Shown here: positions 25,192 through 56,321 of the stretch, in pieces
How the letters are laid out: each line of letters begins with the position of its first letter
How positions within the stretch are numbered: position 1 is the stretch's first letter
The notes under the pieces: model-generated
Told to the model about the DNA's origin: nothing
What the model saw: only the letters and a program-made list of their open reading frames with translations
The model's database searches: none
Assembly (NCBI RefSeq): GCF_001294535.1
Contig: NZ_LGIC01000077.1
Location: 1-64,000, forward strand
Length of the DNA stretch: 64,000 nt
DNA from: Cypionkella psychrotolerans
GTDB taxonomy: Bacteria; Pseudomonadota; Alphaproteobacteria; Rhodobacterales; Rhodobacteraceae
Reading direction: 5' to 3'
Position numbers and translations under genes: made by a program

Positions 25192-26748
25192 CTAAATAAG
25201 CTGATACTTCACGCTTCGCGCCAGCCAACAGCCCAGTATCACTCCACTTATGTCCTTATTGCCATCCCGCTGGATTGTCAGAGTCCAATCACCAGGCGCA
25301 GGCGCATCCATCGAACGGCGCGTAGCAACGGTCCACACATCGGGGCCAGCGGGTGCCATGCGCTCCATCCGTCCTCTGCCCAACATGCCGCTAAACTGCG
25401 CGTAAACGCCGCCACCACGCGCCACAATCTCCATTGAGGCATCCAATTCGGCCGAGTGGTATTTACCGGCAATCTCTGCGGCGTTGGCGCAGTCCAACAA
25501 AGCCAGAGGCACAAGCATGGCGTAGCTGTTGTCCTTTACTCGCGTGAGGGTCACACCGTCTTTTCCGCGTGACAGCACCACACCGGGTGCTCTCAAGGTG
25601 TCGTCCGCTGCCAAAGTTAGCCGTTCAGCGCCCCCGGCATGATAAAGATCGGCATAATCGCGGCCGCTTTGCAGACGGGTCAAAAGCCCGTTTGGGCCGA
25701 TCCACTGTCCATCCCAACCATCCGGCAACGCGGTGGCCTCTGGAATCTTATGTCCCATGGCGGCCCGCACTAAAGATTCCGCCGCACCATGCGCGTCTGC
25801 TTCGTGATTGAACATCACCACCACCGACAATCGCGCCGCCCGCGCATTCGTGCGGTGAGCACGAAAGCCCCGCAGCGCCCCGCCATGTCCGACGCAGTCC
25901 AATCCGGCGATCCTATCATGCGCGAGTCCATAACCATAAGAAGCTGGTTTGCCATCAGAAAACTGGGGTGGTTCTGACGCGCGCCGGTAAAGGCTGGCGG
26001 CGTCATCGCGTGTCGCATCAATCCATGCTTCATAGGCCAGCATATCCGACAGCGAGGATGAAATGCCCGCATCGCCGACCCAATAAATCGCATTCTCGGC
26101 CGGAAAAAACCCGGTCGCATCGCTGCCCTCATAGCCGACCACACCGTCTTCTGGGATACTGGTATCGGCCGTCAGCACGGTGGTCTTCATGTGCGCCGGA
26201 CCCCAAACATGCAACTTGTAAAGCTGCTCAAGCTCTTGGCCTGTTTGCGCTTCAATGATCTCTGACACGATACGAAAGTTACAATTACAGTAGGAATACT
26301 GCGTGCCTGGCGGAAAATGCCCCGTCTTCATCCGCGCGATCAATGGCAAGGCATCTTCGCGGCGAAACGGCTGTTCGGCAAAGGCGCCTTGCAAGACCGT
26401 GAGCGCCCAGTAATCGCGCAGACCTGATTGATTGTCGCAAAGTTGTTGCACCGTCGGCAGTTGCCCCATGAATTGCGGCAAAAACGCCGCTACCTGACTG
26501 TCGAAATCTGACGGCTTTTCCAGCGCGGCCAACAGCACCTGACAGGTGAACTGCTTTGTGATTGAGCAAATCGGCAACCTTGTGTCCGCGGTCATAGGTT
26601 GCGCAGTATCGACATTGGCATAGCCCCAGGCACGGGTGGCAATCACCTTGCCATCCAGCATAACGCCAGCCACGCCCCCAGGTCCAGGATACCGCTTAGG
26701 CAACGCATCAAGGGTCGCAGTTACCGCATCGAGGTCGATCTTTGTCAT
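25192..26748 (-). CDS. dap: D-stereospecific aminopeptidase (DAP), serine beta-lactamase/PBP fold
   Basis: A 518-residue class-C beta-lactamase-type hydrolase matching DAP of Brucella/Ochrobactrum, which removes N-terminal D-residues such as D-Ala from peptides and amides. Active-site triads fall at the DAP positions: Ser62-x-x-Lys65 (SITK), Tyr153-x-Asn155 (YCN) and His288-x-Gly (HGG). After the catalytic domain (about 1-330) come two beta-barrel domains with the final WTLTIQRDGNKDISG. No signal peptide, so it acts on imported peptides in the cytoplasm. It is the last gene of the Dpp-type transport operon on this strand. Confidence 0.85.
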   Translation of the reverse strand: MTKIDLDAVTATLDALPKRYPGPGGVAGVMLDGKVIATRAWGYANVDTAQPMTADTRLPICSITKQFTCQVLLAALEKPSDFDSQVAAFLPQFMGQLPTVQQLCDNQSGLRDYWALTVLQGAFAEQPFRREDALPLIARMKTGHFPPGTQYSYCNCNFRIVSEIIEAQTGQELEQLYKLHVWGPAHMKTTVLTADTSIPEDGVVGYEGSDATGFFPAENAIYWVGDAGISSSLSDMLAYEAWIDATRDDAASLYRRASEPPQFSDGKPASYGYGLAHDRIAGLDCVGHGGALRGFRAHRTNARAARLSVVVMFNHEADAHGAAESLVRAAMGHKIPEATALPDGWDGQWIGPNGLLTRLQSGRDYADLYHAGGAERLTLAADDTLRAPGVVLSRGKDGVTLTRVKDNSYAMLVPLALLDCANAAEIAGKYHSAELDASMEIVARGGGVYAQFSGMLGRGRMERMAPAGPDVWTVATRRSMDAPAPGDWTLTIQRDGNKDISGVILGCWLARSVKYQLI

Positions 26749-26810
26749 GTCGGATTACCTATTTGGAAATTGAAAATGCGGCGACCCCAACACAGGTCGC
26801 CGCCACAGGC

Positions 26811-28325
26811 TCAGTAGTTTTTTGTGGTTTGTTCCAGCCAGAACCGGCCCAACGGATTCTGGCCGAAATTTTCAACCCCCTTACGGGTGACGCTGATGAA
26901 CGGGCTGTAATAAAGGTCAATCCAATGCACATCGGATTTGGCCTGTTTCTGGATCTCGGCATATAGTACTGCACGTTTGGTTGGGTCCATTTCCAACCGT
27001 GCGGCCGCCACCATGTCCTTAACTACATCGTTTTTGTAGTTGGTCATGTAGTTGTTGTTGACGTCGTGACCCAAAACGAAGGTGGTCTTTTGGTCAGGGT
27101 CCAAAATGTCATTGGTCCAGTAATTGACGCCCATATCATAATCACCGCTGATCAACATGTCCCAAGTCTGGCTCGGATCGACCTTTTGCAGCGTCACAGT
27201 GATGCCCACAGCCGCGAGTTGCTGCTGCACCAAAATCGCAATCTGCTCGGCGGTTTGGTCACCAGCATCGACCAGATATGTAAGCGACAAAGGCCCGACA
27301 TTCGCCTCTGCCAGCAGCGCCTTGGCCTTCTCGGGATCGAACCCACGCGCGCCATTGTCGTCACTGTGATACAGCGCGCCTTTAGGGATATAGGAATTTG
27401 CAATCTCACCGAGATTAAAGGTCACGGCCTCAACGATGGCCTTCTTGTCAATCGCATAATCAATCGCCTCGCGAACCTTTGCGTTATCGAGGCCGGGGTG
27501 ACTGTGATTCAAAAGCAAATGGTCCTCGCGGGTGGAGGGATCCGCCACGACACTGAGGTTTGCATCCATCTTCAACTCGTCAACCCGCGAGAACGGAACA
27601 TAGATAGCGGCGTCCAACTCGCCCGCCTGCACGGCCAGCATTCGGGTGTTATCATCGGGGATTGAGCGCCATTCCACCCCATCAAGACTAACCTTGTCAG
27701 CATCCCAATAGTTTGGATTTTTCTTTAGGATCACTCGGTCACCGCGCCGCCATTCGTCAACCATAAAGGCGCCCGAACCAACCGGCATTTCTGCAAATGC
27801 CTCTTCGCCCATTGCCTCCATTGCGGCCTTCGACACAATCGACGCCCCTGGCATCGCCAGTGTTGACAAGAATGGCGCCGAAGGCCCGCTGAGTGTGATC
27901 ACCAGCGTGTTGGCGTCAGGCGTCTGCATGTCCTTGATGATTTTGTAGCTGTCCGACCACAGCGAAAGTTCGTTGTCGCGGATGCGGGTCAGGGAATAGG
28001 CAACATCGGCTGCCGTCAAATCTGTCCCGTCCGAGAATTTGGCAGGCCGCAGGAGAAACGTGTAGGTCAAGCCATCAGGCGAAATATCCCAGCTTTTGGC
28101 AATGCCAGGCACAAGTGCCTCGCCCTTATTATCAACCCGCACCAAAACATCAAAGACATTGGAAAGCACCCAGAAATCAATGTTCTGCGCTGTGGCGATG
28201 GGATCAAAGGTGGTGCCATCCTCGCGGCGGCCAATCGTCAGCACGCCCTGCGCTTCGGCGTAAGCAACCGCCGTTGTTGATAACGCAAGGCCCAAAAGCG
28301 CGGCCTTTGTCCAGTTTCTAATCAT
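26811..28325 (-). CDS. Dipeptide/oligopeptide ABC substrate-binding protein
   Basis: Family 5 solute-binding protein (SBP_bac_5) of 504 residues with a signal peptide cleaved near VAYAEA. Typical segments include the ATSYSLTRI-like DVAYSLTRIRDNE stretch, GSGAFMVDEW and the conserved REAIDYAIDKKAIVEA. It delivers peptides to the permease pair encoded upstream. Start overlaps the ATPase stop (ATGA). Located between the transporter ATPase and DAP, which suggests D-residue peptides as ligand. Confidence 0.9.
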   Translation of the reverse strand: MIRNWTKAALLGLALSTTAVAYAEAQGVLTIGRREDGTTFDPIATAQNIDFWVLSNVFDVLVRVDNKGEALVPGIAKSWDISPDGLTYTFLLRPAKFSDGTDLTAADVAYSLTRIRDNELSLWSDSYKIIKDMQTPDANTLVITLSGPSAPFLSTLAMPGASIVSKAAMEAMGEEAFAEMPVGSGAFMVDEWRRGDRVILKKNPNYWDADKVSLDGVEWRSIPDDNTRMLAVQAGELDAAIYVPFSRVDELKMDANLSVVADPSTREDHLLLNHSHPGLDNAKVREAIDYAIDKKAIVEAVTFNLGEIANSYIPKGALYHSDDNGARGFDPEKAKALLAEANVGPLSLTYLVDAGDQTAEQIAILVQQQLAAVGITVTLQKVDPSQTWDMLISGDYDMGVNYWTNDILDPDQKTTFVLGHDVNNNYMTNYKNDVVKDMVAAARLEMDPTKRAVLYAEIQKQAKSDVHWIDLYYSPFISVTRKGVENFGQNPLGRFWLEQTTKNY

Positions 28326-29977
28326 AGTGTAAGCTCCGGTTGGTTAAGGGCAGGGGTGCCGCCGTTGATGGGGCGATCTGGGTCTATATCGGGGATCGCC
28401 GCAATCAAGGCGGCGGTATAGGCAGTTTTCGGATGATCAAAGACCTGTTGCGACGTGCCATCTTCGACAACCTCACCGTAGTGCATCACCACCACCCGTT
28501 CGCAAAGATTGCGCACAATCGCCAAATCATGCGCGATAAAGATCAGCGTTAGCCCACTGTGGGCCGTCAGTTGGCGAAACAGATCTACGATTTGGGCCTG
28601 AATCGTCACGTCCAGTGCCGCCACACATTCATCTGCGATGATGACGCGCGGATTGACTGCCAGCGCGCGCGCAATCCCTGCACGTTGACATTGCCCACCT
28701 GACAGGCTGCGCGGCCGACGGGTGGCGAAGCTTCGATCCAGCCCAACCATCTCCAACAGTTCGGCAACGCGCGGTTGAATTTTGGCTTCCGGAGTCTCGC
28801 CTTGGCTGCGCAGCACCTCTGCCAGCGTCTCACCCACGGTCATGCGCGGGTTGAGCGAGTTGAAAGGATCTTGAAACACCATCGCGGCGTCAGAGCGTAA
28901 ACGCCGCAAAGTTGCAGTCCGATCTTGCGTCAAATCCAGGCCATCAAAGACAACTTTCCCTGATGAAATCGGCGTTAACCCCAACATTGCGCGGGCCAGT
29001 GTGCTTTTGCCAGAGCCGGATTCGCCCACTATCCCCACTGTTTCTCCCGGCCAGATGCGCAAGGAAACCGCCTTAACCGCCCTCAATTCTTTTCCCTTGC
29101 GCAACAAACCGCCGCCTTGGGCAAAGCGCACCTCCAGATCGCGCAGCTCAAACACAGGTTGATGCGCGCGGTCCGGCGGCAGGTGTTCACCCGCAGTTGT
29201 CACCGACGGGTGCGCGGCAATCAGCGCTTGGGTATAGGGATGCTGAGGTGCGGCCAGCAATGCGCGTTTTTCGCCCTGCTCTACCACGTGGCCATCGCGC
29301 ATCACCGCGATACGGTCACAGGTCTGGGCCACCACGCCCAGGTCATGGGTGATCAATACGATCGACAAGCCGCGGCTGTCACGCAGATCCATGAGCAGTC
29401 GCAGAATTTGGGCCTGAATGGTCACGTCTAACGCCGTGGTCGGCTCATCCGCGATCAGAATTTCTGGGTCACAAGCTAGCGCCACCGCGATCATCGCCCG
29501 TTGTCTCATCCCGCCCGAGAACTGATGCGCATGACTGTCATAGGCTCGTTCTGGATCGGGAAACCCCACCTGCGTCAGCAGACCAATTGCCTCGGCCTTG
29601 GCTGCCGCAACGCCTAGACCCTTGTGGTGGATCAGCCCCTCACTGATTTGCCCACCAATCCGCATGACTGGATCCAGATGACTGGTCGGGTTCTGAAAAA
29701 TCATCCCAATCCGCCGACCGCGCACCGTTTGCATCTGCGCCAGATCTAAAACCTGTCCCTCGATCATCACTGAGCCATGCGTGACTTGCAATTGGCGTGA
29801 CGGCAGCAACCCCATCACCGCGCGGCAGAGCAAACTCTTGCCCGAACCACTTTCGCCCACCAGCCCCAAAATCTCGCCCTTGTTCAGCGAAACTGAAATA
29901 TCATCCAGCAAAATCCGCGCCTCATCGTCCCCCCGGAAGACCACCGACAGGCCATCAATCTGCAGATGCGGGATCAT
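28322..29977 (-). CDS. Peptide ABC transporter ATPase, DppD-DppF fusion
   Basis: A 551-residue protein with two complete ABC ATPase domains in one chain. Each has Walker A (GESGSGKS twice), signature (FSGGMRQRAMIAVALA and LSGGQCQRAGIARALA) and Walker B ([12 protein letters not shown] and VIIADECVAALD). The second Walker B has Cys in place of Pro, which is mild. Dpp systems usually use two separate proteins; fused forms are known. Starts in overlap with the permease stop and ends in overlap with the binding-protein start. Confidence 0.92.
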   Translation of the reverse strand: MIPHLQIDGLSVVFRGDDEARILLDDISVSLNKGEILGLVGESGSGKSLLCRAVMGLLPSRQLQVTHGSVMIEGQVLDLAQMQTVRGRRIGMIFQNPTSHLDPVMRIGGQISEGLIHHKGLGVAAAKAEAIGLLTQVGFPDPERAYDSHAHQFSGGMRQRAMIAVALACDPEILIADEPTTALDVTIQAQILRLLMDLRDSRGLSIVLITHDLGVVAQTCDRIAVMRDGHVVEQGEKRALLAAPQHPYTQALIAAHPSVTTAGEHLPPDRAHQPVFELRDLEVRFAQGGGLLRKGKELRAVKAVSLRIWPGETVGIVGESGSGKSTLARAMLGLTPISSGKVVFDGLDLTQDRTATLRRLRSDAAMVFQDPFNSLNPRMTVGETLAEVLRSQGETPEAKIQPRVAELLEMVGLDRSFATRRPRSLSGGQCQRAGIARALAVNPRVIIADECVAALDVTIQAQIVDLFRQLTAHSGLTLIFIAHDLAIVRNLCERVVVMHYGEVVEDGTSQQVFDHPKTAYTAALIAAIPDIDPDRPINGGTPALNQPELTL

Positions 29978-30825
29978 TCACGCACCCCCATGAGGTCGGC
30001 AAGTGCATCCCCCGTCAATGAAAAGCCAAAGGCCAAAACTACAATGGCAAGGCCCGGAAACAACGTGATCCACCACGCTTGCGTCATAAATCCCTGCGCC
30101 TCCGCGACCATCACCCCCCACTCGGCCAGCGGCGGTTGCACGCCCAAGCCAAGATAGCTGATGGACGCACCGCTCAGCAGAACCAGCACGGCATCCGACA
30201 TGACAAAGACCAGCGACCCAGCCAGCGCATTCGGCAAAAGATGGCGAAACATGATCCTTGTGCGCGAAAACCCAAGGCTTGCTGCCGCCACGGCAAAATC
30301 CTGTGTCTTTAGAACCAAAATTTGCGCGCGTATCAGCCGTGCATAGCTGACCCATCCCACCAGTGCCATCGCGATGTAGAAACTGCTGAGGCCCGGTCCC
30401 AGAATAGAGATGATCGACAACATCAACACCAGAAATGGAAAGGCCAAAACCACATCAATGATCCGCATAAACATCACATCGACCCAGCCACCAAAAAAAC
30501 CCGCCAAGGTGCCGACGACCGTGCCGATCAGGAACGGAAATACGACACCGATCACCGCCATCTGCAAGTCGATCCGCGCGCCCCAGACCACCCGCGACAG
30601 CACATCACGGCCAAAGTTGTCAGTGCCAAACGGATGCGCCGGCGACGGCGCCATCAAGCGGGCAGTGCCATCTTGAAAGATCGGATCATAGGGTGCGGCA
30701 TAGGGTGCCATAAACGCAAGGATCACAAAAGCCGCAAGGATGCCCACGCCCGCCACGAGCATTCTGCGCCGCCCAAACCGCGCGCCCCACCGCCGCACGA
30801 AGACAGTATTTGCTGGCACACTCAA
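29974..30825 (-). CDS. Peptide ABC transporter permease (DppC type)
   Basis: Binding-protein-dependent permease of 283 residues with about six helices, the N-terminal OppC extension and the PLGTDNFGRDV-like segment (HPFGTDNFGRDVLSRVVWG). The coupling loop appears as AAASLGFSRTRIMFRHLLPN. The start is TTG overlapping the upstream stop, with a GTG two codons later as an alternative. Confidence 0.9.
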   Translation of the reverse strand: MSVPANTVFVRRWGARFGRRRMLVAGVGILAAFVILAFMAPYAAPYDPIFQDGTARLMAPSPAHPFGTDNFGRDVLSRVVWGARIDLQMAVIGVVFPFLIGTVVGTLAGFFGGWVDVMFMRIIDVVLAFPFLVLMLSIISILGPGLSSFYIAMALVGWVSYARLIRAQILVLKTQDFAVAAASLGFSRTRIMFRHLLPNALAGSLVFVMSDAVLVLLSGASISYLGLGVQPPLAEWGVMVAEAQGFMTQAWWITLFPGLAIVVLAFGFSLTGDALADLMGVRE

Positions 30826-31760
30826 AGCTCAATCCTTGGGTCCAGCGCCACTGTGATGATATCAGCGACAAAATTGATCAACACTGTGGCGACGGCGAAT
30901 GTAAGCGCCACGCCTTGCACCACCATATAATCGCGACTGAAAATCCCACGCACCATAAGCTGGCCCAAACCTGGAAGCGCGAAGACGCTTTCCACCACCA
31001 CGGTGCCGCCAATCAACCAGCCGATGTTAATCGCCAAAAGGTTAATCGTGGGCACCAACGCATTGGGCACCACATGCCGCCAAAACACAATGTTTTCGGA
31101 CATGCCTCGCGCCCGCGCGGCTGTGGCGATATCAGATTGCAGCCCTGCTACCATTCCCGCACGTAACGAGCGCGTCAGAACTGCCGACAGCGACAGCGCA
31201 ATAGTCAACCCCGGCAACACCAGATGCGTCAGCTTATCGAACAACGTCTCGCCGTAACCCGACACTGGCAACCAATCCAGCTTGACGGAAAACAGGATGA
31301 TCAGCATCGCCCCCAACCAAAACGACGGAAACCCTATGCCTGCCGTGGACAGCACACGCACAGTATGATCGGCGACTGTGCCCTGCCGCCGCGCCGAAAT
31401 CGCTGCAAAAGGCACCGCGATCAGCAGCGCCAGCACAACACCCGCCAGCACCAATGCGAGGGTCGGCTCCACCCGCGTTGCGATCAACCGCAGCACGTCA
31501 ATCTTATAGAGCGTTGATTTGCCCATCTCGCCCGCGCCAAGATTCTTTAAAAAGTACAAATATTGCGTCCACATCGGTTCGTCCAAGCCATACTGGGCAC
31601 GGATATTGGCGATCGCAGTGGGCGTCGCCCGTGTGCCCAGCAATATTCGCGCAGGATCGCCTGGGATTAGTCGAACCAGCACAAAAGTCACCACTGAGAT
31701 TCCAAACAAAACCGGCAGAAACTGCAGCGGCCGGAACAAGACAAAGCGATAGCGGTGCAT
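30822..31760 (-). CDS. Peptide ABC transporter permease (DppB type)
   Basis: First gene of the leftward importer operon. The protein has six helices, a start typical for DppB (FRPLQFLPVLFGISVVTFVL) and IPGDPARILLG, plus the coupling loop ARARGMSENIVFWRHVVPNA. I start it at the ATG at 31760; an upstream frame to 31802 adds non-conserved residues. The promoter should lie in the gap 31761-32048, where I see no clear operator. Confidence 0.9.
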   Translation of the reverse strand: MHRYRFVLFRPLQFLPVLFGISVVTFVLVRLIPGDPARILLGTRATPTAIANIRAQYGLDEPMWTQYLYFLKNLGAGEMGKSTLYKIDVLRLIATRVEPTLALVLAGVVLALLIAVPFAAISARRQGTVADHTVRVLSTAGIGFPSFWLGAMLIILFSVKLDWLPVSGYGETLFDKLTHLVLPGLTIALSLSAVLTRSLRAGMVAGLQSDIATAARARGMSENIVFWRHVVPNALVPTINLLAINIGWLIGGTVVVESVFALPGLGQLMVRGIFSRDYMVVQGVALTFAVATVLINFVADIITVALDPRIEL

Positions 31761-32048
31761 GGTCCTCGACCCTTCTGGCCATAAATGTTTGCAAAAAAGC
31801 AAACTCTCTCTGCGCTACACTATTCAAGCCAGTGAGTTTCCAGCAAGTGTGACGTGCAGCATTTTAGCAACGTATCGGCATTCCCCCTTGCAGGACCGGC
31901 TCAGTTGACAAAAAGCCGATCAACGATCTACCTGTTCCATCCCGGCACATTGCATCGACCCTCGCCGTCTGCCACTGTTCATCGCAAGGTCTGCGCTTCG
32001 TGATCTGATCGCCGGGTTGCATTCTGATGCCAACGGGGTGCAGGCGGC

Positions 32049-33012: not shown

Positions 33013-33912
33013 CTACCCGCCGTCGAAACGCACTGGATAGCAAGCAGGCAGATCCTGGGCACCTGCGGCTTCGGCCAATATAGTACGCGCCTGATCTTCG
33101 GATTGGCGGGCCGTATTGATGCAGATCCCCATGCAACGAATCGTAGGCGAGACCTTGCGGCCAAGGAGCGTCGCCGGCTCGATAATTTCGGCGATGCTGC
33201 TGGCTTGGGGGCCCGGAAAACCCAACAGATCCGTTCTGCCCGCTTCATGCCAGACCACAAAGGTACCAGGCTGAACACCGTGCAACAATCCCCGTGAGAC
33301 ACCGGCATAGGCTGGATGGACCAGCGATCATTGGTCTCCAACGATGTCCCAATGGTCGTCGCTGGCGGATGGGGTCAGCGCTTTAACTGCGCCGGCAAGG
33401 AAGTGTGATACAATGACATCAACGACGATCCCGTGGCCGTCAATCAGCACACCGGTTTGACCTGTGGCGCGGAAGGTCGCAGGAATGCCGCGCCTGACCA
33501 GCTCGCGATGAATAGGGAGGGCTGAATACTTCTTGCCCACTGCACAATCCGTGCCCACCAACAACACCCGATGACCAGATCTTGGAAGACCTGTTGCCAC
33601 GGGGAACGAGCCATCGAAAAATCGCACGTCATGCAGATTTTATCCGGTGCCGTTGGCCACATCGGCCAATTCGGAAAGGCTGCGCAGCGGCACATGCAAT
33701 CCCGACGCGACGTCCAGCCCTTCCTCCATCGCCTCTGCAGTTCGCGCCACCCAATGTGCGGGAATTTGCCCGCCCTGAGGCGATGTGCCGATCCCCAACG
33801 TCTTTGCCCCTGATGCTGCAGCCTTTTTGAGGTCCATATCCGGCAGGCCCAGATCTGCGGTAAAGCCCGGCTTTCGCAACTGTGCAAGGCAGCGTTCAGG
33901 CCCCAGAAAGCT
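33013..33912 (-). pseudogene. DUF1611 (DgcN-like) protein relic with two nonsense codons
   Basis: A single continuous frame shows the DUF1611 fold: FTADLGLPDMDLKKA, a PAHWVARTAEAMEEGLDVASG stretch in two parts, GHRVLLVGTDCAVGKKYSAL (P-loop-like), FRATGQTGVLI and GLLHGVQPGTFVVWHEAGRT. It is interrupted by TAA at 33640 and TGA at 33328. About 45 N-terminal residues are missing and the tail runs into the IS481 relic. Intact DgcN works with DgcA in D-amino-acid or peptide metabolism, so this is a lost part of the D-amino-acid theme of the region. Confidence 0.8.
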
Positions 33913-45935: not shown

Positions 45936-45979
45936 CCAAGCGACCGAAAAATCGGATATAACTGGGAGGTATACAACCG

Positions 45980-47578: not shown

Positions 47579-47596
47579 GCCTTGCAGTAACCAAAA

Positions 47597-47625
47597 CTCT
47601 GCGGCCCTCTCTCAGGGCCGCAGAG
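47597..47625 (+). promoter_or_regulatory. Intercistronic hairpin after the binding-protein gene
   Basis: A perfect 12-bp stem (CTCTGCGGCCCT / AGGGCCGCAGAG) with a CTCTC loop and no T run. It would stabilise the binding-protein mRNA or attenuate readthrough to the permease genes. Confidence 0.75.
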
Positions 47626-47643
47626 CCCAAGAAGGGTTAAGCG

Positions 47644-48579
47644 ATGCTCCGTTTCACCATGCGGCGTTTGTTGCAAATGATCCCGACGATCATCGCAGTG
47701 GCGCTGCTCATCTTTGTGATCTTCAGTGTCGTTCCAGGCAGCTTTGCGTCCAGCCTGATGGCCGACGGCAAAACCGCATCCGACCCAGAGCTGTTGGCGC
47801 GTCTGAACGAACAGTTCGGGCTGGATAAGCCGGTCTACATCCGGGCTTGGGAATACCTGTCAGGACTTGCACATTTCGACCTTGGGACTTCATTCCGCAC
47901 CCGCGAACCTGTCCTGGACGTGATTAACGACCGGATCTGGGCCTCGTTGAAACTGTCGATTGCGGCAATGGTCTTCGCCATCGTGATCGGTGTTCCGCTT
48001 GGCTTCATCGCGGCACTTCGCCCCGGAAGCGTGCTGGATTCCATCACCATGATTGGCGCGGTGTCTGGCCTGTCGATGCCACAATTCTGGCTAGGCCTTT
48101 TGCTGATGTATTTCTTTGCTTTGGTCTTAGGGTGGCTTCCAAGCTTTGGCTACGGGGGCGGCGATCTGAAATATCTGATCCTGCCAGCGATTACCCTTGG
48201 TGTCACGCCGCTGGCCCTATTAGCCCGCACAACCCGCGCGGGTGTTCTGGAAATCACGAATGAGGATTTTATCCGCACCGCCCATTCTAAGGGAATGAGC
48301 AATTCGCGCGTGATCCGTTGGCATCTGATGCGCAATGTAATGGTTTTAGTTGTCACTACCATCGGCCTTCAATTCGGCTCGATGATGGGACAAGCGGTGG
48401 TGATTGAGAAACTCTTTTCATGGCCCGGCATTGGGTCACTGCTGATAGATTCCGTCTCCATCCGCGATATTCCTGTAGTGCAAGGGACCATTTTGGTGAT
48501 CGTGCTGTGGTTCCTGCTTATCAACACCTTTGTCGATATCATCTATGCCGCAATTGACCCACGGATCAAACAAACATGA
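47644..48579 (+). CDS. Peptide ABC transporter permease (DppB type)
   Basis: A 311-residue permease with six helices. The N terminus MLRFTMRRLLQMIPTIIAVA, the FGLDKPVYIRAWEYLSGLAHFDLG-like loop (seen as LNEQFGLDKPVYIRAW and LAHFDLGTSF) and the EAA-type loop AHSKGMSNSRVIRWHLMRN identify DppB. Its stop overlaps the next start. Part of the second importer operon. Confidence 0.92.
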   Translation: MLRFTMRRLLQMIPTIIAVALLIFVIFSVVPGSFASSLMADGKTASDPELLARLNEQFGLDKPVYIRAWEYLSGLAHFDLGTSFRTREPVLDVINDRIWASLKLSIAAMVFAIVIGVPLGFIAALRPGSVLDSITMIGAVSGLSMPQFWLGLLLMYFFALVLGWLPSFGYGGGDLKYLILPAITLGVTPLALLARTTRAGVLEITNEDFIRTAHSKGMSNSRVIRWHLMRNVMVLVVTTIGLQFGSMMGQAVVIEKLFSWPGIGSLLIDSVSIRDIPVVQGTILVIVLWFLLINTFVDIIYAAIDPRIKQT

Positions 48580-49397
48580 GACGATTTAACCTGAACCTTT
48601 GGCTGGGTGGTGTCTTGACCCTTTTGGTCATCACAGGTGCGGTGTTTGCTGGATATTTGACCTCGCTAGATCCGGTGTTTGATGCCAATCTTATGCATGC
48701 CGAAGAGGCGCCAAATGGACAGTTTTGGTTTGGCACCGATGAACAGGGCCGCGATGTTTACACCCGCGTGTTATACGGCGCCCAGATCTCTCTAACAGTA
48801 GGGATCGTCAGCCAGATTATCAATTCCATCATCGGCCTATCGCTGGGCATTTCCGCCGCCTATTGGGGGGGGTGGTGGGATGATTTTGTCAATGGTCTGA
48901 CCAACGTTATGCTGGCAATCCCCTCGCTCATCTTCGCGCTTGCCATCATGGCGGTCCTTGGGCCGGGCCTTCCCAGCTTGCTGATTGCTCTGGGACTCAC
49001 AAACTGGTCTTGGACCTGCCGCATAGCACGATCCTCGACCCTATCGCTTAAGGGGCAAGGCTATGTGCAGGCCGCCCAGACGCTAGGATACAGCGACATC
49101 CGCATCATGGCCACACAGCTTTTGCCCAATATGGTGGGTCCAATCCTTGTCATTTCCACACTTGGGATCGGGTCAGCAGTGCTGGCTGAGGCGGCGCTGT
49201 CCTTCCTTGGCCTTGGCATCCGCCCGCCCTTCCCCAGCTGGGGCAGCATGTTGACCGGCGCACGAGAATTGATCGTAGTAGCTCCCTGGGCCGCAGTTTT
49301 TCCGGGCCTTGCGATCTTTATAACCGTGTTGGGCTTTAACCTCTTGGGTGATGGATTGCGTGACTATCTCGACCCCCACATGCGGACCCGCCAATGA
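48576..49397 (+). CDS. Peptide ABC transporter permease (DppC type)
   Basis: A 273-residue permease. [20 protein letters not shown] is the DppC signature after the first helix, and the coupling loop reads [19 protein letters not shown]. Overlaps both neighbours by 4 bp. Confidence 0.92.
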
Positions 49398-50329
49398 CCG
49401 ACACCCCCCTGCTAGAGCTGAAGAACCTGCACGTCGGCATCCCGAAACGCGACGGGTATCTGGACATCGTCAAAGACGTCAGCTTTTCCATCATGCCCGG
49501 TGAGGCGTTCGGGTTGGTCGGAGAAAGTGGTTCGGGCAAAAGCCTGACCGCGCTCTCACTGATCCGGCTGTTAAAAAAGCCGCTTAAGGTGTCCAAAGGG
49601 CAGATCCTATTCAAAGGCCGCGACCTGCAAACCCTGTCTGACCGCGAGATGCGGGGCCTGCGCGGTGAGCGGATTGCGATGATTTTCCAAGAACCGATGA
49701 CCGCGCTGAACCCGTTGAAAACCGTGGGCCGTCAGATTGCCGAAATGTTCGTTCTGCACCGGGGCATGGGCTGGGCAGAGGCGGGGCGCAAGGCCGTCGA
49801 TGCGCTGGCCTCGGTCAAGGTGCCAGCCCCCGAAGAGCGCGTGCTTGCTTACCCGCATCAGATGTCGGGCGGGATGCGTCAGCGGGTGATGATTGCGATT
49901 GCGCTGGCCTGTGACCCTGACCTTTTGATCGCGGATGAACCGACAACTGCACTGGATGTGACCGTGCAAGATGAGGTGTTAAAGCTGATCGGCGAACTTT
50001 GCGCCGCGCGCGGGACCGCCGTTTTAATGATTTCACATGATTTAGGGGTGATAGCCAATATGTGCCAACGCGTCGGCGTGATGTATTCGGGGCGGCTGGT
50101 TGAAGAACGCGATACCTATGATCTGTTTGCCGCACCGCGACACCCCTACACCAAGGGTTTGCTCGGCGCCCTGCCCAGGCTTGGCACTCGCCATGGCGCG
50201 GCAGGACGGCAGCGTTTGGTTGATATTGACGGGCTGATAAAAGACCGCGAAGCCTTGCTGCAAGAGTTTTGCTTTCAACCCCGCAATACCATACGCGACC
50301 CGCGCTTGCGGGCGGACGGTGCCGCATGA
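49394..50329 (+). CDS. Peptide ABC transporter ATPase (DppD type)
   Basis: A 311-residue ATPase with Walker A (GESGSGKS), signature ([16 protein letters not shown]), Walker B ([13 protein letters not shown]) and the switch His (ISHDLGV). The C-terminal tail is shorter than usual and keeps only a weak oligopeptide C-terminal domain ([17 protein letters not shown]). Unlike the first Dpp-type system in this window, the two ATPases here are separate. Confidence 0.92.
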
Positions 50330-51279
50330 CCGTGCCCTTGTTGGAAATCCGCGACTTGCATGTCCAGTTTCCGGTGGGAGGCTCTCTGCTGGGCCACAAC
50401 AAACGCCTATTGCGGGCAGTGAACGGGGTAAACCTGTCACTGGCGCAGGGTGAATGCTTGTCGATCGTGGGCGAATCCGGTTGCGGCAAGTCGACGACGG
50501 CATTGGCGGTGATGGGTCTGCAAGCGCCAACCTCGGGCGATATTCTGGTCGATGGAAAAACCATCATCGGCGATGCGACCCTTAGCCGGATGGACCGCGC
50601 CCGCATTGCACAGATGGTATTCCAAGACCCCTATGCCTCTCTCAATCCACGTCAAACCGTCCATCAATCCCTGTCAGCGCCCTTGCGCCTGCACGGTGCG
50701 TCAAAATCCGAAGCAAATGACCGGATCGCAGATATCTTGAAGAAGGTTGGGCTTTTGCCCGAACACGCAGCCCGTTATGCGCATGAATTTTCTGGCGGTC
50801 AACGCCAACGCATCGGTATCGCCCGTGCATTGATCCTTGATCCGCGTATTTTGATGTTGGACGAACCCGTGTCGGCGCTAGATGTGTCGGTTCGGGCACA
50901 AATCATCAACTTACTTTTGGATTTACAAGAGGATCTGTCGCTGTCCTTTGTGATGATCAGCCATGATCTGGGTGTGGTTGAACATATGAGCGACCGAGTC
51001 GCCGTGATGTATTTCGGCCAAATTGTAGAGGTAGGGCGTTGGGATGCGATCTTTGCCAATCCAACCCATCCTTATACCCGCAAGCTGATTGCCACGATCC
51101 CGGATCCTGACACCATTTTGCATCCGCACCGAAATCGCGCGACGGCGGCGGCCCCGCCGCCCCCTGCAGGGTTTTACTTCCATCCCGAAACCACAGATCG
51201 CCCTGATGTTTATGCCGCCGCGACCCCCTCCGACTTGATAGAGGTGGCGCCGGACCATTTTGTCCGCTGTGCGACATAA
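50326..51279 (+). CDS. Peptide ABC transporter ATPase (DppF type)
   Basis: Second ATPase of the importer. Walker A is GESGCGKST, signature FSGGQRQRIGIARALI, Walker B ILMLDEPVSALDVS. I start at the ATG at 50326, overlapping the preceding stop; an earlier frame reaches 50269 inside the dppD-like gene. The C-terminal region lacks the usual four-Cys iron-sulfur-like cluster of many DppF proteins and ends in VAPDHFVRC. A bidirectional-looking hairpin follows. Confidence 0.9.
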   Translation: MTVPLLEIRDLHVQFPVGGSLLGHNKRLLRAVNGVNLSLAQGECLSIVGESGCGKSTTALAVMGLQAPTSGDILVDGKTIIGDATLSRMDRARIAQMVFQDPYASLNPRQTVHQSLSAPLRLHGASKSEANDRIADILKKVGLLPEHAARYAHEFSGGQRQRIGIARALILDPRILMLDEPVSALDVSVRAQIINLLLDLQEDLSLSFVMISHDLGVVEHMSDRVAVMYFGQIVEVGRWDAIFANPTHPYTRKLIATIPDPDTILHPHRNRATAAAPPPPAGFYFHPETTDRPDVYAAATPSDLIEVAPDHFVRCAT

Positions 51280-51287
51280 GACGTTTC

Positions 51288-51317: not shown

Positions 51318-51332
51318 GCTGTTTTCGATCCT

Positions 51333-52157
51333 TCATTGTGTCAAGAACCGCAAAGCCCGCTGGATTTCAAAGATCGTGTCTCCCTTGAACCCAACTGCCC
51401 TTGGGCTGTTAAGGTAGGCACCCGGGTAAAACGAAGAGCGCCAAGCATCGCTGGGGGTCACAAATTCCAAGGAGATCTCGAATGGCCCGCCTGCCGCAGG
51501 GGTTCGGTGCGAGGAAGCCGTCTTCAAGGCTTTCTCAACGCCGTCGCGGATCGCCTGACGCGCCCGCGCTGGTGAAATCGAAAGCGAAGCGCGCCCGAAG
51601 CCTTCCAGTGTCGCCACAGTGTGAATACCGGGCACGAGTGCCACGGCATGCCTGCACATTTCTGCGTCGCCGGATAGGAAGACAGAAGACACGGTATGAC
51701 GCGCGGCAGTCAGTGAGTTCATAGTGAATTCTGACGCAACCTCGCCGTTCAGGATCAGGCGCGAAATCCTCAGGTTTGTGCTATGGGCCAAAGGATTAGC
51801 CTGGAACACCGCCTTAGAATGATAGTCCGTGTAGATCGCAGCGGCAAAACTGGGATCAATGCCAAACATCATGGCATCCGGGTGGCCCGACCATCCGCGC
51901 ATGATCTTAACATTTTCGGGCAGCCGATTAAGGGCGAGGTTTTGACCGCTATCATGCGCATCTTTGATCACCACTTCGGTGGCACCTGCGGCAAGCGCTC
52001 CCTCGCAGGCGGCCAGAACCTCGCCCGTCATCAGATCGCGAAATTCTTCGTAATCGGCATGGCTGCGTTCGGCTTCATCCCAATGGGCGATGCCGGCGGT
52101 GCCTTCGATGTCAGTTGATATAAAGATTTCAACGCGTCGTTGCCATTGCCCAGTCAA
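51333..52157 (-). CDS. D-aminopeptidase, peptidase M55 (DppA family)
   Basis: A 274-residue M55 zinc peptidase; Bacillus DppA cleaves D-Ala-D-Ala and D-Ala-Gly-Gly. Family landmarks are IFISTDIEGTAGI at the start, VVIKDAHDSGQN, IMRGWSGHPDAM, and the YHSKA and EFTMNS segments that hold metal ligands and fold residues. No ATG fits the start; the TTG at 52157, overlapping the P1 peptidase gene by 29 bp, is most likely. Coupled to the P1 peptidase in one leftward operon. Confidence 0.88.
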   Translation of the reverse strand: MTGQWQRRVEIFISTDIEGTAGIAHWDEAERSHADYEEFRDLMTGEVLAACEGALAAGATEVVIKDAHDSGQNLALNRLPENVKIMRGWSGHPDAMMFGIDPSFAAAIYTDYHSKAVFQANPLAHSTNLRISRLILNGEVASEFTMNSLTAARHTVSSVFLSGDAEMCRHAVALVPGIHTVATLEGFGRASLSISPARARQAIRDGVEKALKTASSHRTPAAGGPFEISLEFVTPSDAWRSSFYPGAYLNSPRAVGFKGDTIFEIQRALRFLTQ

Positions 52158-53184
52158 TCAGTGATGGAAATTTTAGATCCGCGCGCCCCTGGCCTGCACG
52201 GCCTTGGGTCGTTCGGGCCGCGCAAAGCGCGTTCAGAACCGCCTCTTGGGTTGCCTCGGCCGCCGCCCGAAAAGGCAGATCGATCAGATCATCATTGAGG
52301 CGCTGGACGCTGTCAAATGCGCCGCTTGGCGAATGCGCAATCGGGTCTGCCGTGGTAAAGGCCAATGCGATATCACCTGAACCATGCCCCCAAAAAGCCC
52401 CAAGCCGCGCAAGTCCCGCCCCACCTCGCCGCGCAACACGTTGCAACTGGAGATCAGCAAGCGGCAGATTGGTGGCCAGAATGACGATGACCGATCCCCT
52501 TTCTTGCAGATTTGTGCTCTTTGGGTTCGGTCTGCGCCCGTCGGGCAGTATCAGGTCGCCAGATCGGCCAAAGTTCGCCAAAACCAATGCGCCAAGCGTA
52601 AACTCTTGCCCTGCAATCTCAAGACGCCGAGAGGCGCTGCCAATGCCCGCCTTGAACCCGAAAGCGGTCATTCCAGTGCCGGCACCGACCGAGCCTTGCG
52701 GCATAGGCCCCTCGTTTGCCCCATTCAATGCCACCCAAGCATCAGATGGCTGCACCGCCAAGGCCTGTATGTCGTTGATAGCGCCGTCATTACACTCAAA
52801 CACTAACGGATTGACGGTTGATGCCTGCCGCCCGATATCCGGGTTAGCCATGATCGCGCGACGGATCAGCGCGTCGCTGCAAGCCGCGACGCCAAAGGTA
52901 TTGGTCAGCAAAATCGGCGTTTCTATCGTGCCGAGTTCTTCGACCTGCATAAGCCCAACAGATTTTCCAAAACCGTTGATAACACTGACGCCCGCGCGCA
53001 CCTTCTGCCGGAACATATCACCACGATGCGGAATGATTGCGGTCACCCCCGTGGCAATCCCGCCGCCTGTCAGCGTCTGATGTCCGACCCTCAGGCCTGC
53101 CACGTCGGTGATGGAATTCAGCGGACCGGGCGAAAGAGCGTTCATGCCGTCTGCCCAAAGGCCCAAGGATCTCGCATCTGTCAA
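52129..53184 (-). CDS. P1-family (DmpA-type) aminopeptidase, autoprocessing N-terminal nucleophile hydrolase
   Basis: A 351-residue DmpA-type L-aminopeptidase/D-esterase. NSITDVAGLRVGH, the ECNDGAINDI motif, GSVGAGTGM and the cleavage site at Gly230-Ser231 (RGSVIVILATNLPL) are all intact; self-cleavage there frees Ser231 as nucleophile. DmpA enzymes release D-Ala, L-Ala or beta-peptide residues. The start is uncertain: TTG at 53184 with AGGA upstream, or ATG at 53145. Operon with the M55 gene, 98 bp from the large fusion gene upstream. Confidence 0.88.
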   Translation of the reverse strand: MTDARSLGLWADGMNALSPGPLNSITDVAGLRVGHQTLTGGGIATGVTAIIPHRGDMFRQKVRAGVSVINGFGKSVGLMQVEELGTIETPILLTNTFGVAACSDALIRRAIMANPDIGRQASTVNPLVFECNDGAINDIQALAVQPSDAWVALNGANEGPMPQGSVGAGTGMTAFGFKAGIGSASRRLEIAGQEFTLGALVLANFGRSGDLILPDGRRPNPKSTNLQERGSVIVILATNLPLADLQLQRVARRGGAGLARLGAFWGHGSGDIALAFTTADPIAHSPSGAFDSVQRLNDDLIDLPFRAAAEATQEAVLNALCAARTTQGRAGQGRADLKFPSLIDWAMATTR

Positions 53185-53282
53185 ATTGGCATCCTGTTAT
53201 CTATCTTCCTACCCAAGTTCGGGCAGACACGCTCAAACTTGGAGTTCTTGGCTGGGAGGTGCAACTTGAATGTTAGTGGTGC

Positions 53283-56200
53283 TTAAGCAAATAGAGCCTG
53301 TTTAACGCCAGCGTCTCTGAAACCGTCCACTTCGCGCAGTATCTGCTCAAGCACTGTCAGGATCATCTCGACACCCGCGCCATCAATCGTCAGTGGTGGA
53401 CGGATTTTGAGGATGTTGTCAAATGGCCCTTCGCATCCAATCAAAATACGATGCTCGCGCATGCGGTTTTTGACGTAGTCGGCAATCTGGGATCCGGGAG
53501 CGCGGGTCTTCGGATCCTCGACCAAATCAACACCGATGAAAAGGCCATACCCTCGGACATCGCCAATCACCTCATGCCGGCGTTGCAGGTCTCTTAGGCC
53601 GTTCAGCAGGTTGGCACCCATAAGGCGGGCATTTTCCATTAGCCCTTCATCATCCACGATATCCAGCACCTCTTTGCCCATCCGGCAAGACAGGGTGGAG
53701 CCGCCAAACGTAGAAAAGTATTCCGGCCCGTGTGCAAAGGCATCGGCAATAGCATGGGTGGTGACAACAACGCCCAGTGGATGCCCGTTGCCGATGGGTT
53801 TGCCCAATACTACGATGTCGGGCAGCACCTCTTGTTGTTCGAAACCAAAGTAGTAGTCACCCAACCGGCCCAAACCAGTTTGCACCTCGTCCGCAATGCA
53901 AACGCCGCCGGCGGCACGAATGCGCCGGTAAACACCTGCAAGGTAGCCCTTTGGCGGAATGATCTGCCCACCAACACTGGGAAATGTCTCGGCGATGAAC
54001 CCGGCAAGCTTTCCGCCCCGCTTGACAATCGCGTCCAGTGCCGGATCAACCATTGTCGCAAACTTTTCCGCTCGATCAGGGTCATCCCGCCGAAAGCTAC
54101 CGCGATAGTCGTCGGCCACTTCGACCAGTTGCACCCAGTCGGGTTGACCAACGCCGCCTTTGGCATTGAATTTGTAGGCCGATATGTCAATCGCGCCGGT
54201 CGTATTTCCGTGATAGCCGTGATCGGGCGTGATAATGTCTTTACCGCCCGATTTGGCGCGCGCGAGCCGAAGGGCAAGCTCGTTCGCCTCGGAACCAGAA
54301 TTGACAAAGAAACAAACCGAAAGCCCGTCCGGCATTTTCGAGATGATTTTCTCGGCAAAGGCCGATTGTGCCGGATGCAGGTATCGGGTGTTAGAGTTCA
54401 TTCGCCTCAGCTGATCTGCCGCCACCGCCTGAATGCGCGGGTGGGCATGGCCGACATGGGGGACGTTGTTATAGGCGTCCAGATACGGGCGGCCCCATTC
54501 ATCGAACAAATGGTGCTGCCAGCCGCGCAAAAGCATGACGGGGTCAGCATAGCTGAGCTTGAGGTTGCGCCCGAAAAGCTCTTGCCGCTTGGCCAGAATT
54601 TGCTTTTTGTCGATCGGTTGATAGGCCACCTTGTCGTCGGACAGGTTCATCAAAGCCGCAGGATTGGGGCAGATCGCCCCCCACAGACCCATCTCGTCTG
54701 GGTCCGCGACCCCCGGCCAGTCCTGACCCATGCCATCCGTGGTAAGGGCAAGCTGGAAATGGACATGCGGCGCCCAACCGCCCGACTGGGTCACATCGCC
54801 AAGACGGGCAAATGCCTCGCCCTTGGCAAGCGGTTGGCCGATCCGCAGCTTTTGACAGACCTCGGGGTTCAGATGGCCATAGAGCGAGAAGAACGCGTCA
54901 CCGCTCGGCGTTTCGTGCCGCAAGATGACAACGCCGCCGTAATCAAGATGGTCCGGCCGGTTTTCCACAACATGCACGGTGGCATCCATTGGGGCGTAAA
55001 GCACGGTTTGTGCGGGACCAAAGGCGTCGATGGCCAGATGCACGGTCCGCCGGTTTGATGCTTTCCACGGCCCGCGCCGGAAGGCGGACGCGGTATAGAT
55101 CAGGCGCGGCTCGTTATAGTAGCCTAGCCAGATACGGCCGTTGTCTTCAAACTCTTGCCCGATCAAGGCGGCCTCGGCCAATGGCAAATCAAACGGGTTC
55201 CGCGGGCTAGTCGAGTTTTCAACCGAAAGCGACCCCATCGGAGCAGCGGTCAAATCCGCACCCATGATGGGCGCAAAACGGCCGCGGTTTTTGTCGAGCC
55301 AGTCCAGGATCCTCGGAGCAGCGTCGGTGACAGGAAGCCCGCAGACTGCGCGTAGGCGCTTGGCAACCAAACCCGGATTGACCAGACCAGATTCAAGAAA
55401 CGCCCATGCCGGTGCTTGTGAGATGGTTACATAGGGATCATCCGGCTTGGCCAAAGCCATTTCGGTCGAATTCACCACGCTGACAGCAAGGCGCATGCGC
55501 AACAGAGGCCAGATCATATCGACCTCTGCAGCCGTCAGGGGATAGGCGGCATGATAGCCCGCAACAACATTCTCCAACGCTTGTTCCGGCGAAGAATGCC
55601 CAAGCACAATATAGGCACACGTGATTGCAAGATCGCAGATCCGCGGGCTGGCGCACATATCCCCCAGATCTAAGATGCCCGAGACATGCGGGGCCGTCGT
55701 CAAAGAGCCGTCAACAAGGAGATTGTAATCATTTACGTCATTGTGGATCGCGATTTGAGGCAGGCTTTGCAGATCCGACAAGATGGCACGAAAATCCGCA
55801 AGAATACCCCTCAGCAGATCATGACGTTTTGCATCAGCGACAAGGTGAAGTTTGTGCGCGATCCAATCGGCTTGGGTGAGGTTCCACTTGAAATCTCGTG
55901 ACAGGGCCGGATGCTTGAAATTCGTCAATGCCAGTCCCATCGCGCCGACAGAATGGCCAATATTTGCCAACAATGCTGGGCTATGGGGCAGAAACTTCGC
56001 GTATGTGCGCCCTTTGACTCTCTCTAAAAGCCAGACATGACGGGCAATGCCACTTTCATCAGGCACGGCCGTAAAAAGTGCGCCAGCGCGGGTTCTTACG
56101 ACACGCGGAACGGTGACATTGGGCGCATTCATCGCGATGTGATCAAACGCTCGGCATTGTAGGTCGATGAAGTCGGCTTCGCAGCCTTGGCGCATGACTT

Positions 56201-56321
56201 TAAGCACAAAATCGTGCGTGCCGGTTGCAAGGAAGTTGAGATCAAACTCACCATCAAGTGGGCTGAGTTGGGCCGTTATTCCCCAAACTTCTTGCAAAAC
56301 GCTCTGCCAATTTGCCGTCAT
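53283..56321 (-). CDS. Three-domain fusion: APH/hydroxylysine-kinase-like, M23 peptidase-like, class III aminotransferase/phospholyase-like
   Basis: A protein of about 1012 residues (ATG at 56321 behind GAGGG). Residues ~1-330 are an aminoglycoside-phosphotransferase fold with IHNDVNDYNLL (catalytic Asp ~195) and GILDLGD, as in hydroxylysine kinase. Residues ~395-555 are M23/LytM-like with HLAID (His ~428, Asp ~432) and HVHF (His ~519 and ~521), so all zinc ligands are present. Residues ~590-1012 are a PLP class III enzyme with IADEVQTG and Lys ~841 in VVLGKPIGNG, the branch that contains hydroxylysine and ethanolamine phosphate phospholyases. Kinase plus phospholyase would phosphorylate and then eliminate an amino alcohol; the role of M23 is unknown. 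No signal peptide. Confidence 0.85.
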   Translation of the reverse strand: MTANWQSVLQEVWGITAQLSPLDGEFDLNFLATGTHDFVLKVMRQGCEADFIDLQCRAFDHIAMNAPNVTVPRVVRTRAGALFTAVPDESGIARHVWLLERVKGRTYAKFLPHSPALLANIGHSVGAMGLALTNFKHPALSRDFKWNLTQADWIAHKLHLVADAKRHDLLRGILADFRAILSDLQSLPQIAIHNDVNDYNLLVDGSLTTAPHVSGILDLGDMCASPRICDLAITCAYIVLGHSSPEQALENVVAGYHAAYPLTAAEVDMIWPLLRMRLAVSVVNSTEMALAKPDDPYVTISQAPAWAFLESGLVNPGLVAKRLRAVCGLPVTDAAPRILDWLDKNRGRFAPIMGADLTAAPMGSLSVENSTSPRNPFDLPLAEAALIGQEFEDNGRIWLGYYNEPRLIYTASAFRRGPWKASNRRTVHLAIDAFGPAQTVLYAPMDATVHVVENRPDHLDYGGVVILRHETPSGDAFFSLYGHLNPEVCQKLRIGQPLAKGEAFARLGDVTQSGGWAPHVHFQLALTTDGMGQDWPGVADPDEMGLWGAICPNPAALMNLSDDKVAYQPIDKKQILAKRQELFGRNLKLSYADPVMLLRGWQHHLFDEWGRPYLDAYNNVPHVGHAHPRIQAVAADQLRRMNSNTRYLHPAQSAFAEKIISKMPDGLSVCFFVNSGSEANELALRLARAKSGGKDIITPDHGYHGNTTGAIDISAYKFNAKGGVGQPDWVQLVEVADDYRGSFRRDDPDRAEKFATMVDPALDAIVKRGGKLAGFIAETFPSVGGQIIPPKGYLAGVYRRIRAAGGVCIADEVQTGLGRLGDYYFGFEQQEVLPDIVVLGKPIGNGHPLGVVVTTHAIADAFAHGPEYFSTFGGSTLSCRMGKEVLDIVDDEGLMENARLMGANLLNGLRDLQRRHEVIGDVRGYGLFIGVDLVEDPKTRAPGSQIADYVKNRMREHRILIGCEGPFDNILKIRPPLTIDGAGVEMILTVLEQILREVDGFRDAGVKQALFA

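Follow-up and report, generated by a model that had tools for sequence, protein, structure and literature searches.

An island of predicted D-residue and unusual-amide hydrolases with two Dpp-type importers in Cypionkella psychrotolerans, including a probable N-terminal-threonine amidase

What could be the function of a gene region in which several hydrolases of D-amino-acid and unusual-amide families lie next to two complete Dpp-type peptide importers? This question is raised by an island located at positions 25192-56333 of contig C77 (NZ_LGIC01000077.1) of the alphaproteobacterium Cypionkella psychrotolerans, whose genome assembly of 5.08 Mb comprises 93 contigs. The window considered here is the whole stretch of DNA that was analysed, the first 64,000 nucleotides of this contig. 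A preliminary description of the window had proposed a dedicated route for taking up and dismantling D-residue, N-acyl or gamma-linked peptides. This proposal now finds support in the gene company that recurs around these genes in other genomes, to the extent that gene content can tell. With a probability of about two in three, the island would serve the cytoplasmic catabolism of imported D-residue, N-acyl(-D) or gamma-glutamyl/isopeptide-linked peptides, as an enlarged relative of the known ddp and dpp systems. Its hydrolases and importers are the following.

25192-26748, minus strand: DAP, an S12-type D-aminopeptidase (Pfam beta-lactamase and DAP_B; NCBIfam PRK13128)
26811-31802, minus strand: importer 1, complete and Dpp-type (Pfam and NCBIfam profiles), made of the next four genes
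26811-28325, minus strand: importer 1 substrate-binding protein (SBP)
28322-29977, minus strand: importer 1 fused two-domain ATPase
29974-30825, minus strand: importer 1 permease C
30822-31802, minus strand: importer 1 permease B
40393-41136, plus strand: C26 gamma-glutamyl-type hydrolase (C114; H216, E218)
41133-42086, plus strand: prolyl aminopeptidase, family S33 (TIGR01249)
42083-43543, plus strand: D-aminoacylase, or N-acyl-D-amino-acid deacylase (solved relatives 1m7j, 3gip)
43536-44168, minus strand: DUF6963, short form, predicted N-terminal-threonine amidohydrolase of the N-terminal nucleophile (Ntn) class
44316-45935, plus strand: YtcJ-type amidohydrolase (Amidohydro_3)
45980-51279, plus strand: importer 2, complete and Dpp-type (SBP, permease B, permease C, ATPase D, ATPase F)
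51333-52157, minus strand: M55 D-aminopeptidase (Pfam M55)
52129-53184, minus strand: S58 peptidase of the DmpA/P1 family (Pfam S58)

Pfam and NCBIfam profiles and solved-structure relatives recover every gene family named in the preliminary description where it had been placed, with open reading frames throughout except in a dgcN-like relic, and the profile scans find complete gene sets for both importers. The arrangement of these genes looks operon-like in several places. In importer 1, the genes for permease B, permease C, the fused ATPase and the SBP follow each other with 4-base overlaps, and DAP lies 62 bases further on. The ATPases form one fused two-domain protein in this importer and two separate proteins in importer 2. 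The genes of C26, prolyl aminopeptidase and D-aminoacylase (40393-43543, plus strand) also overlap by 4 bases, and the DUF6963 gene is convergent to the D-aminoacylase gene, their ends overlapping by 8 bases. YtcJ and importer 2 (44316-51279) converge on M55, S58 and a fusion gene (51333-56333). The hydrolases had also been described as lacking signal peptides. This holds by eye, a charged-then-hydrophobic leader being seen on both SBPs only, but a crude hydropathy measure does not separate the hydrolases (D-aminoacylase 1.65 and DUF6963 1.60, versus 1.63 and 2.12 for the SBPs of importers 1 and 2).

The families of DAP, M55, S58 and D-aminoacylase are established, along with active-site letters of the first three, and the reactions are predicted. 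DAP scores 680 bits against the NCBIfam D-aminopeptidase model PRK13128 (cut-off 443), its beta-lactamase and DAP_B domains span the full length, and residues 1-516 align with the D-aminopeptidase 1ei5 at 459 bits. The alignment keeps S62-x-x-K65, Y153-x-N155 and H288-G-G, and we take SxxK, YxN and HxG to be the functional motifs of the family. The M55 protein reaches 257 bits in Pfam and 81 bits against the DppA structure 1hi9, with identical letters at D16, E18, H68, H113, H125 and E143, presumably the metal site and catalytic histidine of DppA. It falls below the NCBIfam DppA equivalog (125 bits, cut-off 430), and is thus an M55 enzyme rather than DppA. The S58 protein (361 bits in Pfam) aligns to the solved structures 2drh and 1b65 and carries G230-S231, which we assume to be the Gly-Ser self-cleavage site. 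The D-aminoacylase matches the solved D-aminoacylase 1m7j at 515 bits over positions 5-477 of 486, and the N-acyl-D-glutamate deacylase 3gip at 418 bits. Two other names need to be narrowed. The hydrolase first called PuuD-like belongs to C26, with PuuD 6vtv as its best-scoring solved relative (130 bits), but stays under the PuuD equivalog (136 bits, cut-off 266). For the YtcJ-type enzyme, the Amidohydro_3 assignment stands (367 bits), the name YtcJ itself coming from the preliminary description with no profile match behind it, and all three of its solved relatives are named uncharacterised. The prolyl aminopeptidase exceeds the TIGR01249 cut-off (311 versus 259.75 bits).

Comparison with other genomes, in which a lack of co-occurrence would have refuted the preliminary description by its own account, did reveal co-occurrence of these genes, in Shinella, Gemmobacter megaterium (G234) and Oceaniglobus indicus loci among others. 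Rather than being one fixed unit, the island brings together two or three smaller conserved blocks. The separately conserved blocks are DAP with importer 1; YtcJ with importer 2 and S58-M55, in some cases with DAP; and DUF6963 with D-aminoacylase, in some cases with C26. They recur in Rhizobiaceae, Brucellaceae and other Rhodobacterales. Importer 1 with DAP was found in five loci beyond the window, namely in genomes G051, G091 and G010 (L013, L014, L019), in Rhodobacter sp. CZR27 (importer proteins 70-84% identical) and on plasmid pShin-11 of Shinella HZN7 (65-79%). Orthologs of the importer 2 block are present in L023, L115 (O. indicus) and L130. DAP, S58 and M55 stand together on two Shinella plasmids (WSC3-e and S. 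zoogloeoides) and in G. megaterium. In the latter, DAP-S58-M55 adjoins YtcJ and importer 2, and the same contig carries, at a distance of about 130 kb, DUF6963 beside D-aminoacylase. In Shinella sp. WSC3-e, a member of the Rhizobiaceae, the row reads DAP, D-amino-acid transaminase, S58, M55, LysR, YtcJ and importer 2, with identities of 55% (DAP), 67% (S58), 64% (M55), 63% (YtcJ) and 60-79% (importer). These two loci thus indicate that the two halves were joined independently of the window.

A large part of the island has a counterpart in one block of O. indicus, with importer 2 (69-94% identity), YtcJ (78%), DUF6963 (63%), D-aminoacylase (83%) and C26 (69%), the 8-base overlap of the DUF6963 and D-aminoacylase genes being found there too. 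This block also includes S58 and M55, at 46% and 45%. In the trees, its S58 and a copy from Pseudorhodobacter fall in a separate clade (support 100/99), and its M55 groups with two lineages other than that of the window (98/100). That S58 and M55 belong here to other lineages speaks for selection on the combination, which was apparently assembled more than once. Proline iminopeptidase was considered as a conserved companion but found no support, since it was near none of the anchors in the neighbourhood count; a 'proline iminopeptidase-family' protein of Shinella HZN7 has no BLAST match to that of the window at E 1e-10. As a side observation, the source genome has a second DAP gene on contig C88 (L021, 8698-10254), 79% identical to the first and lacking a pair of Dpp-type permeases within 10 kb.

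The linkage was also counted in a sample of 248 genomes of the family and in a class sample of 240 genomes. DAP_B is found in 10 genomes of the family sample and M55 in 12, one of them below the cut-off. Both are present together in four (Fisher p 0.0004); excluding the source genome, three are observed versus 0.4 expected (p 0.004). The class sample gives three genomes with both (p 0.0002), or two without the source genome (p 0.004). S58 is common (222/248 family genomes), with 45 matches at 1.3e-96 or better. M55 lies no more than about 100 bases from such a high-scoring S58 in five places of the family sample (contigs C77 and C11 of the source genome, G000; G046; G101; G234) and in one of the class sample (G297). 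For the importers, homologs of permeases B and C of the window were called by tblastn at E 1e-10 and compared with 40 stretches of 20 kb, taken from contigs already in the analysis rather than from whole genomes; four of these were positive, one of them a stretch with DAP, and another stretch of the set carries M55-S58. The permease pair lies within 10 kb of DAP in 6/11 family and 1/3 class loci (7/14 versus 4/40, Fisher p 0.004), as it does in 5 of 8 plasmid loci that we selected among 185 matching records. The corresponding figures for M55 are 6/10 and 2/10 (8/20 versus 4/40, p 0.014). The DAP loci cover 11 of 12 family places, the window being set aside, and 3 of 5 class places, without the two of the source genome. 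The ten family M55 loci leave out the window, the below-cut-off match and a contig fragment, and count the two M55 genes of G046 as one locus; the ten class loci leave out the two of the source genome, one fragment and one match below the cut-off. With DUF6963 included, the importer linkage grades from strong (DUF6963) through fair (DAP) to weak (M55 outside the family).

DUF6963, which had escaped the preliminary description, is found in 10/248 genomes of the family sample, and one pattern scan of genome contigs retrieved 77 loci. Dpp-type permeases lie within 10 kb in 52 of them, versus 4/40 random stretches (Fisher p 1e-9), and in 43 DUF6963 follows a Dpp ATPase gene on the same strand within 400 bases, with permease B in the locus. 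A D-aminoacylase homolog is present in 31/77 loci, at 1 kb or less in 22, and 67/77 contain permease B or a D-aminoacylase homolog. The S58 stop overlaps the DUF6963 start codon in O. indicus, and S58 also precedes DUF6963 in L122. The proteins are mostly 209-217 or about 310 residues long. Reading the 210-residue protein of the window as a truncated pseudogene was rejected, since forms of 209-217 residues also exist in O. indicus, three Labrys, L119 and L122.

Which activity could this protein have? In an alignment of 75 sequences (the window and 74 of the 77 loci, without L087, L113 and L120), Thr2, E24, Q51, H105, R106, D147 and N189 are invariant, with start codons chosen by us, which forces Met1; conservation of A77, S82, G83, P84 and R86 is partly forced by the retrieval pattern. 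The predicted structure of the window protein, of mean pLDDT (predicted local distance difference test) 95.6 and pTM (predicted template modelling score) 0.93, begins its first strand at residue 2. Of the 50 Foldseek matches listed from the PDB, Ntn-class glutamine amidotransferases fill the first 20 places, nine with E of 0.001 or less; the GlmS glutaminase domain ranks first (E 3e-5, probability 1.00, template modelling (TM) score 0.57), and PurF is also matched. For the long form, of which 45 selected by us were aligned, the first 40 of the matches listed are Ntn hydrolases, including GlmS, PurF, EgtC, isoaspartyl aminopeptidase, aspartylglucosaminidase and asparaginase. For both forms, all listed matches with a probability above 0.5 are Ntn enzymes. 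The TM scores by query length are moderate (0.42-0.58 for the first 20 of the short form, 0.25-0.44 for the first 40 of the long form), with 7-17% sequence identity in the leading matches. A sequence search of the PDB gave nothing credible, its best match (E 0.0008) covering 20 residues of chain SAKe6FR. From the modelled fold and the invariant Thr2, DUF6963 is thus probably an Ntn amidase with Thr2 as candidate nucleophile. It would resemble class II glutamine amidotransferases and EgtC in its predicted fold and in the position of the candidate nucleophile at residue 2, but differs by a threonine in place of cysteine; the nucleophile of class II glutamine amidotransferases is a cysteine. A larger proposal can be made tentatively, at somewhat less than even odds: DUF6963 would be a new N-terminal-threonine amidase family for Dpp-imported peptides, opening gamma-D-glutamyl/beta-aspartyl-like links along with N-acyl-D-amino-acid deacylases, and would form with DAP, S58, M55 and YtcJ an undescribed, plasmid-exchanged 'D-peptidome' route in alphaproteobacteria.

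The further features of the island bear on how it was built and on the fate of freed D-amino acids.

33022-33600, minus strand: dgcN-like relic (DUF1611, PF07755, with one internal stop)
32-36.6 kb: transposase remains
36882-37961, plus strand: saccharopine-dehydrogenase-like gene, a possible companion
53283-56333, minus strand: kinase-M23-class III aminotransferase fusion (PRK06148), of uncertain membership

All but the relic, whose interrupted DUF1611 match bears out what had been described, are additions to the preliminary inventory, as is DUF6963. The half with importer 1 and DAP is parted from the remainder by the transposase remains and the relic. Between the saccharopine-dehydrogenase-like gene and C26 lies a broken stretch (39000-40270, minus strand) that looks by eye like a decayed amidohydrolase; an open reading frame at 39019-39741 (plus strand) has no Pfam match. 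Another stretch, 38241-38888, shows a 76% DNA match to a plasmid of Ochrobactrum MT180101, just behind the saccharopine-dehydrogenase-like gene of that plasmid.

A link to D-amino-acid transamination appears outside the island. An annotated D-amino-acid transaminase lies beside S58-M55 in three plasmid loci (Rhizobium daejeonense, Ochrobactrum MT180101 and Shinella WSC3-e), and in the first two S58-M55 stands behind this transaminase and an amino-acid ABC transporter. The S58-M55 pair of these two plasmids forms an operon-like row as in the island, but with another class of importer, and the stretches shown carry no annotation of DAP, D-aminoacylase or DUF6963. Contig C11 of the source genome carries a second S58-M55 pair, with a homologous class IV aminotransferase (Aminotran_4). 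Over 6585 bases (L024, 227-6798), it is 94.9% identical in DNA to the conjugative plasmid of Ochrobactrum sp. MT180101 (CP061776.1), the shared stretch comprising LysR, the D-amino-acid transaminase, the ABC transporter, S58 and M55; the aminotransferase protein is 91% identical to its Ochrobactrum counterpart. This looks like a recent exchange between orders. The same plasmid encodes an 82% relative of the saccharopine-dehydrogenase-like protein about 2 kb from the transaminase. Pyridoxal-phosphate (PLP) enzymes of different classes adjoin DAP-S58-M55 on the two Shinella plasmids: in WSC3-e it is the D-amino-acid transaminase, and in S. zoogloeoides a 39% full-length relative of the fusion lies beside Lrp-DAP-S58-M55. 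A 36% full-length relative is found about 4.6 kb from DAP in G283 (L146). The fusion may stand in for the transaminase in the island.

The proposed route would then run as follows. The two Dpp-type ABC importers would bring into the cytoplasm short peptides or fragments poorly handled by ordinary L-peptidases, namely those with D-residues, N-acyl-D-residues or gamma-glutamyl/isopeptide links. DAP, M55 and S58 would remove N-terminal residues, D-aminoacylase would strip N-acyl groups off D-residues, and C26, DUF6963 and the YtcJ-type enzyme would cut side-chain or unusual amides. Freed D-amino acids would finally reach PLP enzymes such as the class IV aminotransferase of contig C11 and possibly the fusion of the island, transamination being the last step of this putative order. 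Peptidoglycan fragments, lipopeptides and non-ribosomal peptides are possible sources. The island itself would have been built by joining the separately conserved blocks.

A number of observations weigh against such a route. The fusion was not adopted as a core member: it is found in 27/248 genomes at E 1e-150, and five of these loci that were fetched (L147-L151, where tblastn gives relatives of 57-77% identity) have no DAP, S58 or M55 nearby. In favour of a link stand the relatives near DAP in S. zoogloeoides and G283. The permease pair is missing within 10 kb in 5/11 family and 2/3 class DAP loci and in 4/10 family and 8/10 class M55 loci, some of these being cut by contig ends, and L016, scored as lacking, having importer pieces beside DAP. 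S58 is present in one of the ten fetched class M55 loci. Near DUF6963, C26, YtcJ and M55 were each found once and S58 twice in 77 loci, and DAP is absent from O. indicus and from 8 of the 11 other DUF6963-bearing genomes searched (present in 3/12). These Fisher tests make no correction for shared ancestry, and the loci they compare come from different genomes. The dgcN gene of the island is broken, and the S58, C26 and S33 families include enzymes of L substrates.

This last point leads to a first alternative, a general peptide-scavenging region in which broad importers meet assorted peptidases and the D-type families act as general aminopeptidases or amidases, with no D-specific route. The S58 family does include L-aminopeptidases, L substrates are the usual ones of C26 and S33 enzymes, Dpp-type permeases are frequent enough to turn up in 4/40 random 20-kb stretches, and the transposase remains and broken dgcN suggest a plastic, gene-accumulating region. 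Such a reading is nevertheless unlikely, because DAP and M55, although present in few genomes of the family, are found again alongside each other and alongside importers, D-amino-acid transaminases adjoin S58-M55 elsewhere, and O. indicus has a similar assembly with other S58 and M55 lineages. Somewhat less probable again is that isopeptides or gamma-glutamyl/beta-aspartyl compounds (gamma-glutamyl amides or beta-amino-acid peptides, for instance) are the true target of C26, DUF6963 and S58, D-residues being incidental. DUF6963 is indeed similar to Ntn hydrolases acting on side-chain amides (GlmS glutaminase, EgtC, isoaspartyl aminopeptidase, asparaginase), and beta-peptidyl aminopeptidases are among the solved relatives of the S58 protein. 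However, DAP, D-aminoacylase and the nearby D-amino-acid transaminases point to D-residues, and C26, found near DUF6963 in a single locus, is no general neighbour.

It could also be asked whether two or three unrelated catabolic operons have simply become neighbours by chance in this genome. The transposase remains do part importer 1 and DAP from importer 2, YtcJ and S58-M55, and the former pair occurs without the other block in the fetched stretches of G051, G091 and G010. Chance is nonetheless very improbable given that DAP is found with YtcJ, importer 2 and S58-M55 in both G234 and Shinella WSC3-e. The preferred reading stays that of a catabolic unit for imported peptides with D-residues, N-acyl groups or isopeptide links.

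How far does it go beyond known systems? The combination of a Dpp-type importer with a D-peptide hydrolase is already known from ddp and dpp. We take the E. coli ddpXABCDF system to consist of a Dpp-type importer and a cytoplasmic hydrolase of D-residue dipeptides, and the island resembles it in this pairing. Instead of the M15 enzyme VanX/DdpX, it has DAP, M55, S58, D-aminoacylase and others with two importers; Peptidase_M15 gave no match among the 30 open reading frames of the window that were scanned. In the dppABCDE operon of B. subtilis, the M55 D-aminopeptidase DppA goes with a Dpp importer. The island shares this link of M55 to a Dpp importer, but its M55 gene forms a pair with S58 and runs towards the importer genes. 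Among published loci, one of similar design is the mlr-like locus of the microcystin degrader Blastomonas fulva (B5J99_03460 to 03490), with mlrB, M55 (as mlrC) and ABC ATPases and permeases, whose relatives are partly annotated as dipeptide or D,D-dipeptide transporters; the passages of the paper covered here mention no S58, D-aminoacylase, DUF6963 or YtcJ (PMC9505733). A literature search, mostly of non-subscription papers, found none naming DUF6963 and none describing the cluster by its title or the start of its abstract. We regard as new the larger gene set, its recurrent assembly and the reading of DUF6963 as a probable Ntn amidase.

Two neighbouring features of contig C77 lie outside the island. 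A cluster at 58421-63667, continuing to about 69148 (L197), contains SDR, DHDPS-like, Asp/Glu/hydantoin racemase and TRZ/ATZ-type amidohydrolase genes and a third Dpp-type importer, which has two SBPs; a GntR regulator gene lies further on. An M19 dipeptidase gene (8694-9704) was rejected as a member of the island, since it adjoins an aldehyde dehydrogenase and a betaine-type importer and fits another pathway.

Two papers count D-amino acids among the recalcitrant dissolved organic matter of the ocean (PMC10845958, PMC12363236), and these residues are also known from peptidoglycan and from non-ribosomal peptides (PMC12363236). The main text of the latter, a survey of D-amino-acid genes, does not contain the words aminopeptidase, aminoacylase or transporter, so the step from D-peptides to free D-amino acids seems little covered there. 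A recurring unit of import plus hydrolysis would supply this step upstream of free D-amino acids, and its genes could serve as concrete markers. With its predicted nucleophile, DUF6963 can now be tested as an enzyme family. There is also a practical interest in D-specific aminopeptidases and aminoacylases.

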